This document shows positions 21,722-33,958 of a stretch of 33,958 nt of DNA, piece after piece. The DNA lies in contig JACCUI010000218.1 in assembly GCA_013811945.1 (NCBI GenBank), forward strand, positions 1 to 33,958, read 5' to 3'. The notes beneath the pieces were generated by a model. That model was not told the origin of the DNA and searched no databases. It saw only the letters and a program-made list of their open reading frames with translations. Every line of letters begins with the position of its first letter. Positions within the stretch are counted from its first letter, which is position 1. The translations under genes were made by a program, and so were the position numbers. This stretch comes from Pyrinomonadaceae bacterium (GTDB taxonomy: Bacteria > Acidobacteriota > Blastocatellia > Pyrinomonadales > Pyrinomonadaceae).

Positions 21722-22885
21722 ATGGAGATTGATCAAAACAGGAAAGAGAATGAACCTTCTTCCGTCATCACTCGTCTGCGGGTTCTCATCGTTGCGCCCT
21801 CGCTGAGGATACTTGGTGGCCAGGCCGTCCAGGCTAAACGCCTGATTGATCGATTGAAGAAGGAATCGTCACTTGAAGTTGGCTTTCTACCAATCAATCC
21901 GCGTTTGCCTGGTCCGCTCAGTAACTTGCAAAGTGTCAAATACCTTCGGACCATCGTCACGGAAGTGGCCTATCTCATTTCATTGGCAACGCGAATTCCG
22001 CGGTTCGACGTCATACACATTTTCTCGGCCTCTTATACATCCTTCATTCTCGCGCCCGCCCCGGCCGTATTGATCTCACGGTTGTTTGGCAAGAAGTCCA
22101 TCCTGAATTATCGAAGTGGAGAGGCTGAAGATCATTTAACACATTGGCCCGGCACTACCTTACCGGTGCTTAGAAGGGTTGACGAAATTGTAGTGCCCTC
22201 AGGCTATCTCGTCGAAGTATTCGGTCGGTTTGGTTTTCGGGCACGTTCAGTCTTTAATTTCGTTGACACAAATCGCTTCCGCTTTCGAGAGCGCAACCCG
22301 CTGAAACCAGTCTTTTTTGCCAACCGCAATTTCGAACCACATTACAATGTGGCCTGCGTATTAAGGGCGTTCGCGATTGTTCAAAAAAAACTTCCCCAAG
22401 CCGAACTAATCGTCGCCGGCGATGGAAAGCAAAGAACGGAACTGGAATCGCTGGCATCGCAACTAAACCTCAGAAACATAAAATTTCTTGGTCTCGTGCC
22501 GCAGGAGAAGATGCCTGAACTTTATAACGCCGCCGACATTTATCTTAACTGCCCTAATATCGACAACATGCCCGGATCGATCATAGAGGCTTTCGCCTCG
22601 GGTCTGCCTGTCGTAACCACCGAGGCGGGCGGCATCCCTTTTATCGTCACCGATGGCCAGAGTGGTTTGCTGGTTTCTTGCGGAGACCATGAAGGCGTCG
22701 GGGGCGCGGCCCTTCGACTGCTGGAAGACCCGGCGCTCGCGGCGTCTATTACCAGGACTGCGCACAAGGAGTGCGAGAAATACGATTGGGAATCAGTTCG
22801 TGAAGAGTGGCTGAGATTATACTTTGAGCTGGCGGAAGATCGTGCCGTCAAAGGACGTCTCATTGAAAAACCGGGCACTGAATAA
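21722..22885 (+). CDS. Family 4 glycosyltransferase, second of three
   Basis: A 387-residue GT-B enzyme from the ATG at 21722. An in-frame GTG at 21710, just after the previous stop, is an alternative with an AGGGA-like site upstream; the frame is also open further back inside the previous gene. The N-terminal domain shows LRVLIVAPSLRILGGQAVQA and DVIHIFSAS. The donor domain shows LIVAGDGKQRTELESLA, FLGLVPQEKMPELYNAADIY, NMPGSIIEAFASGLPVVTTE and GGIPFIVTDGQSGLLV. The donor and acceptor sugars cannot be read from sequence. It is followed by the heparinase-like gene after 54 bp. Confidence 0.9.
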   Translation: MEIDQNRKENEPSSVITRLRVLIVAPSLRILGGQAVQAKRLIDRLKKESSLEVGFLPINPRLPGPLSNLQSVKYLRTIVTEVAYLISLATRIPRFDVIHIFSASYTSFILAPAPAVLISRLFGKKSILNYRSGEAEDHLTHWPGTTLPVLRRVDEIVVPSGYLVEVFGRFGFRARSVFNFVDTNRFRFRERNPLKPVFFANRNFEPHYNVACVLRAFAIVQKKLPQAELIVAGDGKQRTELESLASQLNLRNIKFLGLVPQEKMPELYNAADIYLNCPNIDNMPGSIIEAFASGLPVVTTEAGGIPFIVTDGQSGLLVSCGDHEGVGGAALRLLEDPALAASITRTAHKECEKYDWESVREEWLRLYFELAEDRAVKGRLIEKPGTE

Positions 22886-22939
22886 AGATCGGTCAGATCT
22901 ATCTCTGCGGCGGGGTGATTAATAAGTCTATGAAGTTCT

Positions 22940-25396
22940 ATGATCAGGTTTAAGGACCAATTTCGAAGGCTGACACGAATGAGTGCGAGCGAACTTAGTG
23001 GGCGCAGCGCTCAGAAGGCCGCGGCATTCGCAGAGCGGTGGGGTTGGTCATCGCTCTCAAAGCTACCGAGCGATCAAACGCTCTTTGCGATGAGCGATCT
23101 CTCGTCAAGAGGCATCGTCCCGTCAGCGCAAGGGTTCCTCGAGTGTTTCCGCTCGCGCTCGACACCAAACTTTTTTGCGGGCTTCGCCGACAAAGATGCA
23201 ACGGTACTGGAGTTGAGGAAGAGATGGCCATCTGCTGAGTCTGAAATCGTGGAACGCGCCAACCGGCTAGTTGCGGGTCGCTTCGACTTGCTTGGGTTGC
23301 GCGACATCAGTTTCGGCGATCCCATCGACTGGCATCTGGAGCCGATGTCCGGCAAACGCGCGCCTCACGTACACTGGAGCAAGCTTGATTATCTCGATGC
23401 GGAACTTGCAGGTGACAAGAAAATAATCTGGGAGTTAAATCGCCAGCAGTATTTCGCGACACTGGGCCAGGCTTACTGGCTGACAAATGACGAGCGGTAC
23501 GCCGAGACTTTTGTTGCGCATCTTGACTCGTGGATGGATCAGAACGCTCCGAAGGTCGGCATCAACTGGGCCAGCAGCCTGGAGGTGGCTTTTCGTTCGA
23601 TCTCCTGGCTATGGGGGTTCTATTTCTTCAAGGATTCGCCCTCCTTAAAGGCCGGCACCTTCCTGCGCGCGATGAAGTTTCTCTACCTTCATGCCCGTCA
23701 TTTGGAAACTTACCTCTCTACTTACTTCAGCCCCAACACACATCTCACCGGGGAGACTCTAGGGCTGTTTTATCTGGGTTTGTTTCTTCCCGAATTCTCT
23801 GATGCCTGGCGGTGGAAGGAAAAGGGAACGTCGATTTTGATGCAGCAACTCTCTCGTCACGTAAGACCCGACGGAGTCTACTTCGAACAATCAAGCTACT
23901 ATCATCGATACACGACCGACTTCTACACACACTTCCTGATACTTTCTCAGAAAAACGGTGAGCAACGTCCCAGCGATGTGCCTCTTAAACTCCAGGCCTT
24001 ACTGGACCACTTGATGTACATCACCCGCCCAGATGGAACTACGCCTTTCTTCGGAGACGACGATGGGGGTCGACTCGATCCGCTTGATCGGCGTCCGGTA
24101 AACGATTTCCGCGCTTCGTTATCAACCGGTGCCGCGCTCTTTAATCGGGCAGATTACAAGTTTGTCGCCGCCGAAAAGGCCGAACAAACGTTATGGTTGC
24201 TTGGTCCAGAGGCGCTCCAAAATCTGGATGACCTTGAAGCGACACCCCCCGCCCGGCAGTCGGCGGCCTTCAAGGATTCCGGCTACTACATTATGCGCGA
24301 TGGCTGGGGGCCGGCTGCCAACTTTCTATTGTTTGATTGCGGTCCCCATGGCGAGATTAGTTGCGGGCACGCGCATGCCGATGCGCTCTCGTTCGAGCTG
24401 GCCCCAGGTGGGCGGACGATGCTGGTCGACCCCGGCACCTACACCTACACTGGTTCGAAAGAGATGCGTGATTGGTTCCGCAGTTCAGTCGCTCATAACA
24501 CGCTCACAATCGACGGTGAATCTTCGTCGGTTCCAGACGGCCCGTTCTCCTGGCTGAGCGTAGCCCAATGCACCACCGCGAGTTGGATCAGCACCAATCG
24601 CTTCGACTATGTTGAGGGTGGTCACGACGGCTATTCGCGATTGGCGAGCCCTGCGGCGCATTCCCGCTCCATCCTGTTTCTCAAAAAGAATTACTGGGTT
24701 GTGCGCGACCGAGTGAGCGCTGACATGGAACATCGGGTGGATTTGTGGTTTCACTTTGATTCCAATGCCGCCCCACTGATCGAAGCTCTCGAGGGACAGA
24801 TTGGCAATCTGGTTGAGCATGAGGGCGGGACCGGCCTGGGCATCGTGACCTTTGCCGATCAGGGTCGGTGGAGAAGGGAAGACGGCTGGGTTTCGCACTG
24901 TTATGGAGAAAGGGCGCCTGCACGGGTCTATTCTTTTTCGACTTTGATCAATGGCAATAATGAATTGTTGACGTTTCTGCTTCCGCGAACCGACGCTTCT
25001 GAACCAGGACGGGTGCGTGAAATAGAAGCTATCGGAGGCAAAGCATTTGAGCTGACTCACGAGAATGGTGTGGATATTGTTATGATTCGTCAGGGCGAGG
25101 TTGGCCAGCGTGTGGAAATGGAGCGTTTGGCTTCCGATTTTGACTGGACCTGGGCTCGATTTGCAGACGGGAGAGAGCCCATACCCCAGGGATTGGTGCT
25201 GATTGGCGGGCAATGGTTGCAGTTGGATGGAAGAGAAATCATTAAGTTGGAGCGAAGAATTGAATATTTGGCCGCGAGCCAATTGGGACACCAGTTTCGG
25301 GTTGAGACTGACGCCGGCACAGTGAACTTGGACCTTCCGCTGAACGATTTGGAAAGTCTTTTCGCGGTTACAAAACGCCCAGGTGACCTTGATTAG
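22940..25396 (+). CDS. Heparinase II/III-alginate lyase-like polysaccharide lyase
   Basis: An 818-residue protein with the two-part architecture of heparinase II/III-like lyases: an N-terminal (alpha/alpha) toroid, about residues 90-430 (with NRQQYFATLGQAYWLTNDER, GINWASSLEVAFRSISWLW and STYFSPNTHLTGETLGLFYL), and a C-terminal beta-sandwich from about 440, with the signature HAHADALSFEL near 476 and RSSVAHNTLTIDGESS near 515. These enzymes cleave uronic acid-containing chains by beta-elimination using His and Tyr/Asn residues. No signal peptide is visible at the N-terminus, so it may act in the cytosol or be exported by another route. Such proteins are frequent partners of AsnB in polysaccharide loci and may modify or edit the polymer. 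Uronate specificity fits the AlgD-like gene downstream. Confidence 0.87.
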   Translation: MIRFKDQFRRLTRMSASELSGRSAQKAAAFAERWGWSSLSKLPSDQTLFAMSDLSSRGIVPSAQGFLECFRSRSTPNFFAGFADKDATVLELRKRWPSAESEIVERANRLVAGRFDLLGLRDISFGDPIDWHLEPMSGKRAPHVHWSKLDYLDAELAGDKKIIWELNRQQYFATLGQAYWLTNDERYAETFVAHLDSWMDQNAPKVGINWASSLEVAFRSISWLWGFYFFKDSPSLKAGTFLRAMKFLYLHARHLETYLSTYFSPNTHLTGETLGLFYLGLFLPEFSDAWRWKEKGTSILMQQLSRHVRPDGVYFEQSSYYHRYTTDFYTHFLILSQKNGEQRPSDVPLKLQALLDHLMYITRPDGTTPFFGDDDGGRLDPLDRRPVNDFRASLSTGAALFNRADYKFVAAEKAEQTLWLLGPEALQNLDDLEATPPARQSAAFKDSGYYIMRDGWGPAANFLLFDCGPHGEISCGHAHADALSFELAPGGRTMLVDPGTYTYTGSKEMRDWFRSSVAHNTLTIDGESSSVPDGPFSWLSVAQCTTASWISTNRFDYVEGGHDGYSRLASPAAHSRSILFLKKNYWVVRDRVSADMEHRVDLWFHFDSNAAPLIEALEGQIGNLVEHEGGTGLGIVTFADQGRWRREDGWVSHCYGERAPARVYSFSTLINGNNELLTFLLPRTDASEPGRVREIEAIGGKAFELTHENGVDIVMIRQGEVGQRVEMERLASDFDWTWARFADGREPIPQGLVLIGGQWLQLDGREIIKLERRIEYLAASQLGHQFRVETDAGTVNLDLPLNDLESLFAVTKRPGDLD

Positions 25397-31821: not shown

Positions 31822-33420
31822 ATGGGTGCTAAGCCACTTATGAAAGTATCAGCCATAACATTGGGCATTCTCGCGGTCATAGGTTCCCTGGCTGTCGCAC
31901 TAACGCGACCGGGCTTCCTATTTAGTCCGCAGCAGCAGCGTCCCAGACGCGCAATGGAGTCGGGTTCACCGGCGGACATTGTTCTCAAAGCCGGGAGCGA
32001 CTTAAATGCGGCCCTTAAAAAAGCGCAGCCCGGTGACACGATAATTTTAGAGGCTGGAGCAGTCTTCAAGGGACCGATCACGCTGCCGGTAAAGAGCGGC
32101 GAGAAATACATCACGGTGCGTTCTTCTGCCCCTGCTGGCTCGCTCCCCGGTGAGGGCGAGCGTGTAACTCCGGCGTATGCGGGGAAGATGCCGAAAATCA
32201 TGGCGCCGGGTGACGGTCAGGCAGCGCTAAAGACCGCGCCTGGCGCACACCACTTCCGCTTCATCGGTGTTGAGTTCAAACCGAGCAATAGTTCTGCACT
32301 CGTTTACGATCTGATTCAGTTGGGCGAGGGCTCGTCCCCTCAGAACACTCTCGATGTGGTGCCGCATCATCTCATATTTGATCGATGTTACATTCATGGC
32401 GATTCGGCGGGCACGTTGAAGCGCGGTGTCGCCCTCAATAGTCGAGAAACTGAAATCGTGAACTCTTATGTCTCGGAGTGCAAACTTAAGGGACAAGACT
32501 CGCAAGCCCTCTGCGGCTGGAACGGGCCGGGTCCGTTTAAGATCATCAATAACTATTTAGAAGGCGCAGGAGAAAATGTAATGTTCGGAGGTGCCGATCC
32601 CTCCATTCCGGGCTTGGTACCCTCCGACATTGAGATCCGCCGCAATCACTTCTACAAACCGCTGGCATGGCGTGGGCAGTGGACGGTGAAGAACCTGTTT
32701 GAGCTAAAAAACGCGCAGCGCGTGATTGTTGACGGCAATTTGATGGAGCACAGCTGGGCGGACGGCCAGATGGGCTACGCTGTTGTGCTCACTCCTCGGA
32801 ACCAGGAGGGTACAGCCCCTTGGAGTCTGGTCCGTGACGTGGAGTTTACTAACAACATCGTACGGCACGTTGCCTCCGGCATTAGCATTATGGGCCAGGA
32901 CGACATTCGGGCGAGTGGTTTAATGAAGAATATTCTAATCCACAATAACCTGGCTTATGACGTGACCCGTGCGCGCTGGGGTGGACTTGGCTTTGGAGTG
33001 ATTTTCAATCACGGCGGAGGAGAGGAAATTCGAATCACACACAACACGCTCATTACCGACTGGTGCGGGATACAATTCGAGGTGAGCACACAGAAGATTA
33101 ATGGACTAACCGTGCTTAATAACATTATGGAACACATTTGCGGCGGTCCTTACAGCGGCACTGAGGCCCTCAATTGGGCGGTGGAGCGTTGGGACGTTCG
33201 CCGTAACGTCATGGTGGGCACATATCCGCAACAGCCCCACCCCGCCGGTAATCTCTTCGCGCCGACAGCGGCGGGGTTCGACGTCCTTGGTTTTGTGAAC
33301 GCAGCTGCGGGCGATTACCGGCTGGCGGAGCGATCACCTTACAAAAAGCTCGGCACGGATGGGCGCCCTATCGGCTGCGACTTTGAGTTTTTGGGCGCAG
33401 CTCAATCTGCAGCGAAGTGA
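31822..33420 (+). CDS. Exported or membrane-anchored right-handed parallel beta-helix protein
   Basis: A 532-residue protein from the ATG at 31822. The N-terminal hydrophobic stretch (about residues 8-28) is a signal peptide or membrane anchor, so the rest is probably periplasmic or outside. After IVLKAGSDLNAALKKAQPGD (typical start of a beta-helix domain) there are repeated rungs with Asn or His at turn positions: KIINNYLEG, EIRRNHFYKP, VIVDGNLMEHS, EFTNNIVRHV, LIHNNLAYDV, ITHNTLITD, VLNNIMEHI and VRRNVMVGT. This fold is found in pectate lyases, alginate epimerases and polysaccharide lyases. No specific catalytic motif is recognised. A role in epimerising or cleaving the uronate polymer outside the membrane is inference from the neighbouring AlgD-like and lyase genes. 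Confidence 0.82.
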   Translation: MGAKPLMKVSAITLGILAVIGSLAVALTRPGFLFSPQQQRPRRAMESGSPADIVLKAGSDLNAALKKAQPGDTIILEAGAVFKGPITLPVKSGEKYITVRSSAPAGSLPGEGERVTPAYAGKMPKIMAPGDGQAALKTAPGAHHFRFIGVEFKPSNSSALVYDLIQLGEGSSPQNTLDVVPHHLIFDRCYIHGDSAGTLKRGVALNSRETEIVNSYVSECKLKGQDSQALCGWNGPGPFKIINNYLEGAGENVMFGGADPSIPGLVPSDIEIRRNHFYKPLAWRGQWTVKNLFELKNAQRVIVDGNLMEHSWADGQMGYAVVLTPRNQEGTAPWSLVRDVEFTNNIVRHVASGISIMGQDDIRASGLMKNILIHNNLAYDVTRARWGGLGFGVIFNHGGGEEIRITHNTLITDWCGIQFEVSTQKINGLTVLNNIMEHICGGPYSGTEALNWAVERWDVRRNVMVGTYPQQPHPAGNLFAPTAAGFDVLGFVNAAAGDYRLAERSPYKKLGTDGRPIGCDFEFLGAAQSAAK

Positions 33421-33748
33421 TTTGCCTAGGCGGCTGTAATAGAGGATGTCATCTGCGACGCTGCGCTTTTTTAACGAGGCGATTGCATAAGATCAGCAAA
33501 TCTTGTGTGAGGAACGGTACGTAAAACCGTGAATCTGTAGTACTCCCGGTTGGGTCGAACTAGTTTCGCTGGGGAATTGTCTCGTTCCGAACGCGCATCC
33601 TAATACGGCCTCTTAATCAGCTATTCGAGCGAAACACAATGTGGCAGGAAGTGTTTTATAACGCAACACTGGGGGCCCTCGCTAGATGTACTTTGCTTCC
33701 ATTCTTGCCACGTTTCAATGTCAGTTTTTTCCACAAGTTAATAATTAC
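33421..33748. other. ~330-bp intergenic leader region upstream of riboswitch
   Basis: No gene is recognised. Two local inverted repeats are seen: CATAAGAT (33486-33493) with ATCTTGTG (33500-33507), loop of six, and ACGGT (33514-33518) with ACCGT (33526-33530), loop of seven. A TTTTTT run at 33468-33473 follows a GC-rich stretch and could mark the end of the previous transcript, but the stem is poor. An AT-rich TTAATAATT (33738-33746) just before the riboswitch could be a -10 region; no convincing -35 partner was found. Confidence 0.4.
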
Positions 33749-33835
33749 CGACGAACGGCAGCCCCGCACCGATGCGGGTACGCAAAGCCAGGAAGTCTCT
33801 GAAGCGGCATTTTAGAGATCGTCCGGTTACTGAAG
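33749..33835 (+). promoter_or_regulatory. GEMM-type riboswitch (cyclic-di-GMP class I-like)
   Basis: Conserved GEMM elements occur in the right order: ACGGCA (33755-33760), a hairpin of CCCGCA (33763-33768) and TGCGGG (33773-33778) closed by CCGA, the hallmark ACGCAAAGCC (33780-33789), a second hairpin GTCTCT (33795-33800) with AGAGAT (33814-33819), and the 3' segment CCGGTTACTGAA (33823-33834), resembling the consensus GGGTTGCCGAA. From memory of the Vibrio Vc2 structure, the ligand-contacting G20 and C92 correspond to G33758 and C33830, which favours cyclic-di-GMP over cyclic-AMP-GMP. The 3' end is followed immediately by the GAGG (33837-33840) ribosome binding site of the gene at 33848, pointing to translational control. 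Confidence 0.85.
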
Positions 33836-33847
33836 TGAGGTCCATTA

Positions 33848-33958
33848 ATGATTCCCCAGTCCAGTCCTGCCAGATACAGCTTTTCTTTTCGTTGTCTGTT
33901 TTTCGTTTCAAGCCTTATTGTCAGTGTGCTGGTGCTCTGCACGGGCATCATCCACACG
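33848..33958 (+). CDS. N-terminus of a riboswitch-controlled exported or membrane protein (cut by window end)
   Basis: The ATG at 33848 is preceded by GTGAGGT (33835-33841) at ideal distance. The 37 visible residues begin MIPQSSPARYSFSFRCLFFV and continue SSLIVSVLVLCTGIIHT: a short positively charged N-terminus then a hydrophobic stretch from about residue 16, a signal peptide or transmembrane anchor. The frame is open to the edge. The family cannot be named. Its place right behind a cyclic-dinucleotide riboswitch and downstream of an exopolysaccharide locus suggests an export, adhesion or further polysaccharide protein (for example a Wza-like lipoprotein), as speculation only. Confidence 0.7.
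   Translation, partial: MIPQSSPARYSFSFRCLFFVSSLIVSVLVLCTGIIHT

Follow-up and report, generated by a model that had tools for sequence, protein, structure and literature searches.

A cyclic dinucleotide aptamer near the end of a sequenced contig raises the question of which ligand it would sense, which gene it would control and in which direction. The contig, JACCUI010000218.1 of the Pyrinomonadaceae bacterium assembly GCA_013811945.1, was analysed as a single window of 33,958 nucleotides (positions 1 to 33,958). It belongs to a 4.0 Mb genome in 300 contigs that is about 67% complete, and the nearest genomes are those of Pyrinomonadaceae (Blastocatellia, Acidobacteriota).

The Rfam model for c-di-GMP-I (GEMM-I) riboswitches, RF01051, matches positions 33747-33834 of the forward strand over its full length (model positions 1-87), at 38.4 bits, above the gathering score of 35 (E 3e-4 in the window search). 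This match bears out the original prediction of a GEMM aptamer, and the motif order that it described is present. Across the 4 Mb, Rfam recognizes three c-di-GMP-I matches, the window aptamer and two on other contigs, and the window aptamer has the lowest score. A covariance model of the corresponding aptamers of relatives, R2, extends the element to 33735-33841 and gives 88.6 bits (E 1e-20 for the genome). R2 was built from 15 proximal aptamers of relatives and its counterpart R1 from 16 distal ones; the window contributed to neither, and the E-values of both are rough. The RNA has P1, P2 and P3 around a junction. P2 is the hairpin CCCGCA-CCGA-UGCGGG (33763-33778), and P3 (33786-33828; CCAGGAAGTCTC) carries one A more than the class in the Rfam and R2 alignments.

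The ligand contacts named for the Vc2 riboswitch are G20, A47 and C92 (PMC4744006). In the Rfam alignment, their equivalents in the window are G33757 (alignment position 11), A33784 and C33830. An A at position 20 would predict cyclic AMP-GMP (PMC4744006, PMC7288161). Because this position is a G, cyclic AMP-GMP, which had been put forward as a second ligand, is unlikely, and the contact residues predict c-di-GMP instead. The c-di-GMP-I-GGC variant (RF03167) resembles the window aptamer in overall sequence and P1 arrangement, gives it the lowest E-value of a permissive scan, and has its cut-off exceeded by some relatives' aptamers, which might suggest that the window aptamer senses that variant's ligand, or another or unknown cyclic dinucleotide. 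However, the variant is marked by a G at position 47, where the window has A33784, and the window aptamer reaches only 35.1 bits on the GGC model, far below its cut-off of 59. With G, A and C at the three contact positions, such a change of ligand is highly improbable, and the specificities of the cyclic AMP-GMP (GEMM-Ib) and GGC types were both rejected because the contact residues disagree. The P2 loop, CCGA, is not the GNRA tetraloop that docks into P3. We treated this loop as typical rather than defining, as the Rfam threshold does not use it, so its absence lowers the claim of affinity more than that of membership.

Comparison with relatives places the aptamer in a larger arrangement. RF01051 matches occur in 50 of 97 related genomes, many of them paired, and in the mapped loci homologues of the window's last complete gene (31822-33420) directly follow aptamer pairs. 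The order recurs as a distal aptamer, usually 117-354 nt, a proximal aptamer, about 10-16 nt and the start codon. The proteins encoded behind such tandems are secreted, most often 700-1,300 residues long, and over their first 500 residues they usually share 27-56% identity with the upstream window protein. Distal copies in tandem loci reach 101-134 bits with R1 and 41-60 with R2, whereas proximal copies at or above 79 bits with R2 reach 37-70 with R1; with 88.6 bits on R2 and 38.6 on R1, the window aptamer falls in the proximal subclass. In the loci examined, the other 26 proximal aptamers at or above 79 bits all lie directly before a start codon, which is found between 2 nt upstream and 10 nt downstream of the end of the R2 match. 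This close placement is specific to the proximal class, because aptamers of a PilM-associated class lie about 240-340 nt from the start codon. A distal-class aptamer is present upstream in 23 of these 26 loci, and most of their products match our beta-helix family P0001. Two loci, L046 and L062, repeat the gene order of the window, with a paralogue, an aptamer region and a beta-helix gene.

At the position of the relatives' intact distal copy, the window has a decayed distal aptamer (33472-33607, forward strand). It scores 22.7 bits on R1 (E 9e-6 locally; E 0.016 genome-wide, ranking fourth among the matches) and keeps the framing sequences. Two bases have been lost, including the G20 equivalent, several pairs are gone, and P1 and P2 are imperfect. 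An interpretation of this segment as a shortened aptamer was superseded by the full-length R1 alignment. Most proximal-class relatives have a second intact aptamer in the leader, whereas the window leader has this decayed copy only. On these alignments, the window aptamer is best described as the proximal half of a recurrent Pyrinomonadaceae tandem whose distal half has decayed.

The feature that sets the proximal class apart is the relation of P1 to the Shine-Dalgarno sequence. The original prediction had the last pairing element end at 33832-33835, immediately before a GAGG at 33837-33840. The GAGG is there, within GUGAGG (33835-33840) and seven bases before the ATG at 33848-33850, but the end of the pairing was placed short of its true position, since P1 continues into the Shine-Dalgarno sequence. 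The 5' strand UUAC-CG (33745-33750) is an anti-Shine-Dalgarno that pairs with UG..GUGA (33831-33838), so that P1 extends from 33745 on its 5' side to 33838 on its 3' side and takes in the first four bases of GUGAGG. The proposed coupling of P1 to the ribosome-binding site thus stands, whereas mere abutment does not, since P1 contains the site.

Relatives show the same design in a stronger form. In the proximal class, P1 pairs UCAC-CG with CG-AA-GUGA, followed by GG, and GUGAGG is itself the 3' strand; GTGAGG directly 3' of the aptamer is largely conserved across the 41 class sequences. In these 41 sequences, 89% of cells in the six P1 pairs hold standard base pairs, and P1-Shine-Dalgarno pairing that includes the outer CC/GG pairs (5' strand CC-n-UCAC) is found in 86% of cells. 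The paired percentage was reached by none of 500 shuffles and the covariation measures, for the extended P1, by 4-10 of 500, and the 5' flank binds its own Shine-Dalgarno sequence better than those of other loci (0 of 300 permutations). The complementarity recurs across the 41 sequences, with covariation that is modest because the Shine-Dalgarno sequence itself hardly varies. In Vc2, the ligand stacks against the P1 apex pair G14-C93, and A95 bulges out (PMC3764141; stacking also in PMC4744006), and the window's proximal class has the same apex pair and bulged A.

This anatomy favors a translational OFF switch. c-di-GMP would bind the P1/P2/P3 junction through G33757, A33784 and C33830 and stabilize P1 (33745-33750 with 33831-33838). 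Because the 3' strand of P1 is the first four bases of GUGAGG, the stabilized helix would hide the ribosome-binding site of the gene whose start codon lies at 33848. In folding calculations on the class, which ignore tertiary contacts, forced closure of the junction lowers the mean accessibility of the Shine-Dalgarno sequence from about 0.31 to 0.17. The Shine-Dalgarno sequence is often paired in the predicted ligand-free folds as well, which makes the switching amplitude uncertain.

A mean ligand-free accessibility of only about 0.3 across the class could also fit a switch of opposite sign, in which another helix holds the Shine-Dalgarno sequence until folding driven by the ligand opens that helix and releases the start region. 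In the window, the predicted ligand-free fold indeed pairs the Shine-Dalgarno sequence completely with an upstream segment (5'-ACUUUGCUUC-3' with GAAGUGAGGU). However, a search for a conserved ligand-free anti-Shine-Dalgarno across relatives found none, as the partners scatter, and the only conserved complement is the 5' strand of P1, which the ligand would stabilize. We therefore consider translational activation unlikely. The original prediction had allowed that closure of P1 might either mask or free the start region; masking is the part that fits the anatomy, and freeing corresponds to the less supported activating switch. A terminator was considered as the expression platform and rejected: no terminator-like site was found in 33380-33958, and the complementarity of the stretch after the distal aptamer to the next 210 nt is no greater than its complementarity to shuffled sequence (mean -15.3 versus -15.0 kcal/mol).

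Taking structure, class and synteny as a whole, we give a probability of about 0.62 to the reading that this is a canonical c-di-GMP-I riboswitch acting as a translational OFF switch on a secreted beta-helix gene, and that it is the proximal member of a Pyrinomonadaceae tandem with a decayed distal partner. A further step, possible but doubtful, is that Pyrinomonadaceae use c-di-GMP for two-step gating of secreted polysaccharide-acting proteins through two specialized aptamers, the distal one and the proximal one with its P1 containing the Shine-Dalgarno sequence, and that the window locus is losing the first step and becoming a simple translational switch.

The window copy itself is an outlier and may be weakened or decaying. 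Its P2 loop is CCGA, whereas automatic loop extraction recovered a GNRA loop in 33 of the 41 sequences. Position 93, next to C33830, is U in the window and C in the other 40 members, which turns the equivalent of the G14-C93 pair into G-U. P1 is weaker than in the class, with UUAC forming one G-U pair and the outer CC replaced by AA, and P3 has its additional A. Closing the junction would cost 9.5-12.3 kcal/mol, the highest value of the 41 (class median 2.3-2.6), and the upstream helix masks the Shine-Dalgarno sequence in the ligand-free fold. These features, together with a distal copy that has lost its G20 equivalent and the weakest Rfam match of the genome's three, could mean that the copy no longer switches, with the distal half lost and the proximal half misfolding, lacking the GNRA loop and carrying an extra base in P3. 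Against such a loss of function, all three contact residues, the P2 and P3 helices, the Shine-Dalgarno sequence and its spacing to the ATG are retained, the copy scores 88.6 bits on the class model, and the neighboring genes are open. We regard complete loss as quite unlikely, and this somewhat degraded copy may still switch.

The OFF switch would act on the gene that begins at 33848. Only 37 codons are visible (33848-33958, forward strand) because the contig, and with it the window, stops 111 bases after the ATG begins and truncates the gene. Its assignment as the regulated gene comes from synteny and class membership. The visible N-terminus is signal-peptide-like and most resembles the beta-helix protein of locus L049 (z 4.8). 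By synteny, the target is most likely a secreted parallel-beta-helix protein that acts on polysaccharide or serves in adhesion, and a polysaccharide-lyase-like product is predicted.

The upstream gene (31822-33420, forward strand) shares its beta-helix family with the expected target. It encodes a secreted protein of 532 residues that AlphaFold2 models as a right-handed parallel beta-helix (pLDDT 88), and it has no Pfam match. The closest solved folds are lacto-N-biosidase, PL6 alginate lyases, chondroitinase B, pectate lyase and mannuronan C5-epimerases, and by sequence the family profile reaches the alginate lyase 6kfn (E 1e-6, about 50 residues). Apart from this paralogue, the family model picks up only a weak fragment where contig C118 begins, and no further clear member of the target family was found in the host assembly. 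Within the family, some other products under GEMM control are CAP/YkwD proteins or large proteins with Malectin, Big_7 or Soli_cterm domains.

Further upstream, positions 7934-31750 form an exopolysaccharide locus of the XrtA/PEP-CTERM type. It includes two XrtA/PEP-CTERM-type amidotransferases, an O-antigen ligase, a heparinase-like protein and glycosyltransferases. None of the scanned window genes was recognized as an exosortase; three relatives have exosortase genes downstream of the gene under GEMM control. The adjoining exopolysaccharide locus had been foreseen in the original prediction, and its view that the switch would control the next gene and not this locus is supported. It did not include the tandem with its decayed distal half, the family relation of the upstream gene to the target or the signs of weakening.

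Direct coupling of P1 to gene expression is a standard riboswitch strategy. The window shares with Vc2 of Vibrio cholerae and RF01051 the full aptamer, the G20, A47 and C92 equivalents, P2, P3 and a P1 with a CG/CG apex followed by a bulged A and a short helix. It differs in that the 3' strand of P1 is the Shine-Dalgarno sequence, in the CCGA loop, in C93U and in the base inserted in P3. How Vc1 and Vc2 control their genes was described as unknown in PMC4744006. Tandems of c-di-GMP-I riboswitches are common, with 347 doublets and 12 triplets (PMC9481103) and a tested triple, Bc3-5 of B. thuringiensis (PMC4759541). Like these, the relatives' loci have two or more aptamers of one class per leader. 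Here, however, the two are distinguishable subclasses, the proximal one is fused to the Shine-Dalgarno sequence, the window's distal one has decayed, and no intrinsic terminator was found. SAM-II/SAM-V and other tandems with two mechanisms (PMC9481103) offer a parallel for possible two-level control by one ligand, although transcriptional action by the distal c-di-GMP-I copy is hypothetical here. We found no description in the open-access papers searched of this Acidobacteria aptamer class or its beta-helix targets. What is new is the unusually compact expression platform and the visible half-lost tandem.

In the proximal class, the expression platform is reduced to almost nothing, as the Shine-Dalgarno sequence is one strand of a helix that the ligand would stabilize; the direction and amplitude of switching are therefore testable by a few base changes. 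The arrangement would connect c-di-GMP with secreted beta-helix proteins of a widespread family, encoded next to exopolysaccharide loci of the exosortase type in soil Acidobacteria, hosts known mostly from metagenomes. The many natural intact, single and decayed tandems provide material for asking why two aptamers persist.

Several other c-di-GMP-I aptamers were noted. Host contig C293 has a strong, intact distal-class aptamer (22851-22985; L206 2352-2486; R1 score 124.9 bits). About 410 nt further on begins a gene, truncated by the contig end, for a secreted pectate-lyase-like beta-helix protein, and no proximal aptamer is detectable at that locus. The fragment at the start of C118 (L218 1-849), a C-terminal beta-helix piece followed by gmd- and fcl-like sugar-nucleotide genes, was considered as the rest of the window's target gene; it agrees better with being the remainder of the C293 gene, which it probably is.

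The PilM-associated aptamers form a third class that precedes pilM-like type IV pilus genes; it occurs in many Pyrinomonadaceae, the host among them (L207, L058, L059, L184, L188, L191, L199, L203 and others). Single aptamers with the Shine-Dalgarno sequence at the same position as in the proximal class (L177-L179, L181, L183, L185-L187, L190, L196 and L197) precede secreted CAP/YkwD-type proteins of about 200 residues, a product identified by Pfam in two of these loci and in tandem loci L173 and L175, and elsewhere by similar C-terminal sequence. Triple tandems are found at L102 (1983-2385) and L103 (993-1395), with 56-63 bits for each aptamer and a spacing of about 157 nt; their contigs, labelled Gemmatimonadetes, encode beta-helix homologues as well. 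Near homologues of the window protein in L096, L085, L086, L120 and L121 (labelled Rokubacteria, Nitrospirae and others), the aptamers exceed the RF03167 cut-off; this label may mislead, because the L096 alignment has an A at the diagnostic position 47.
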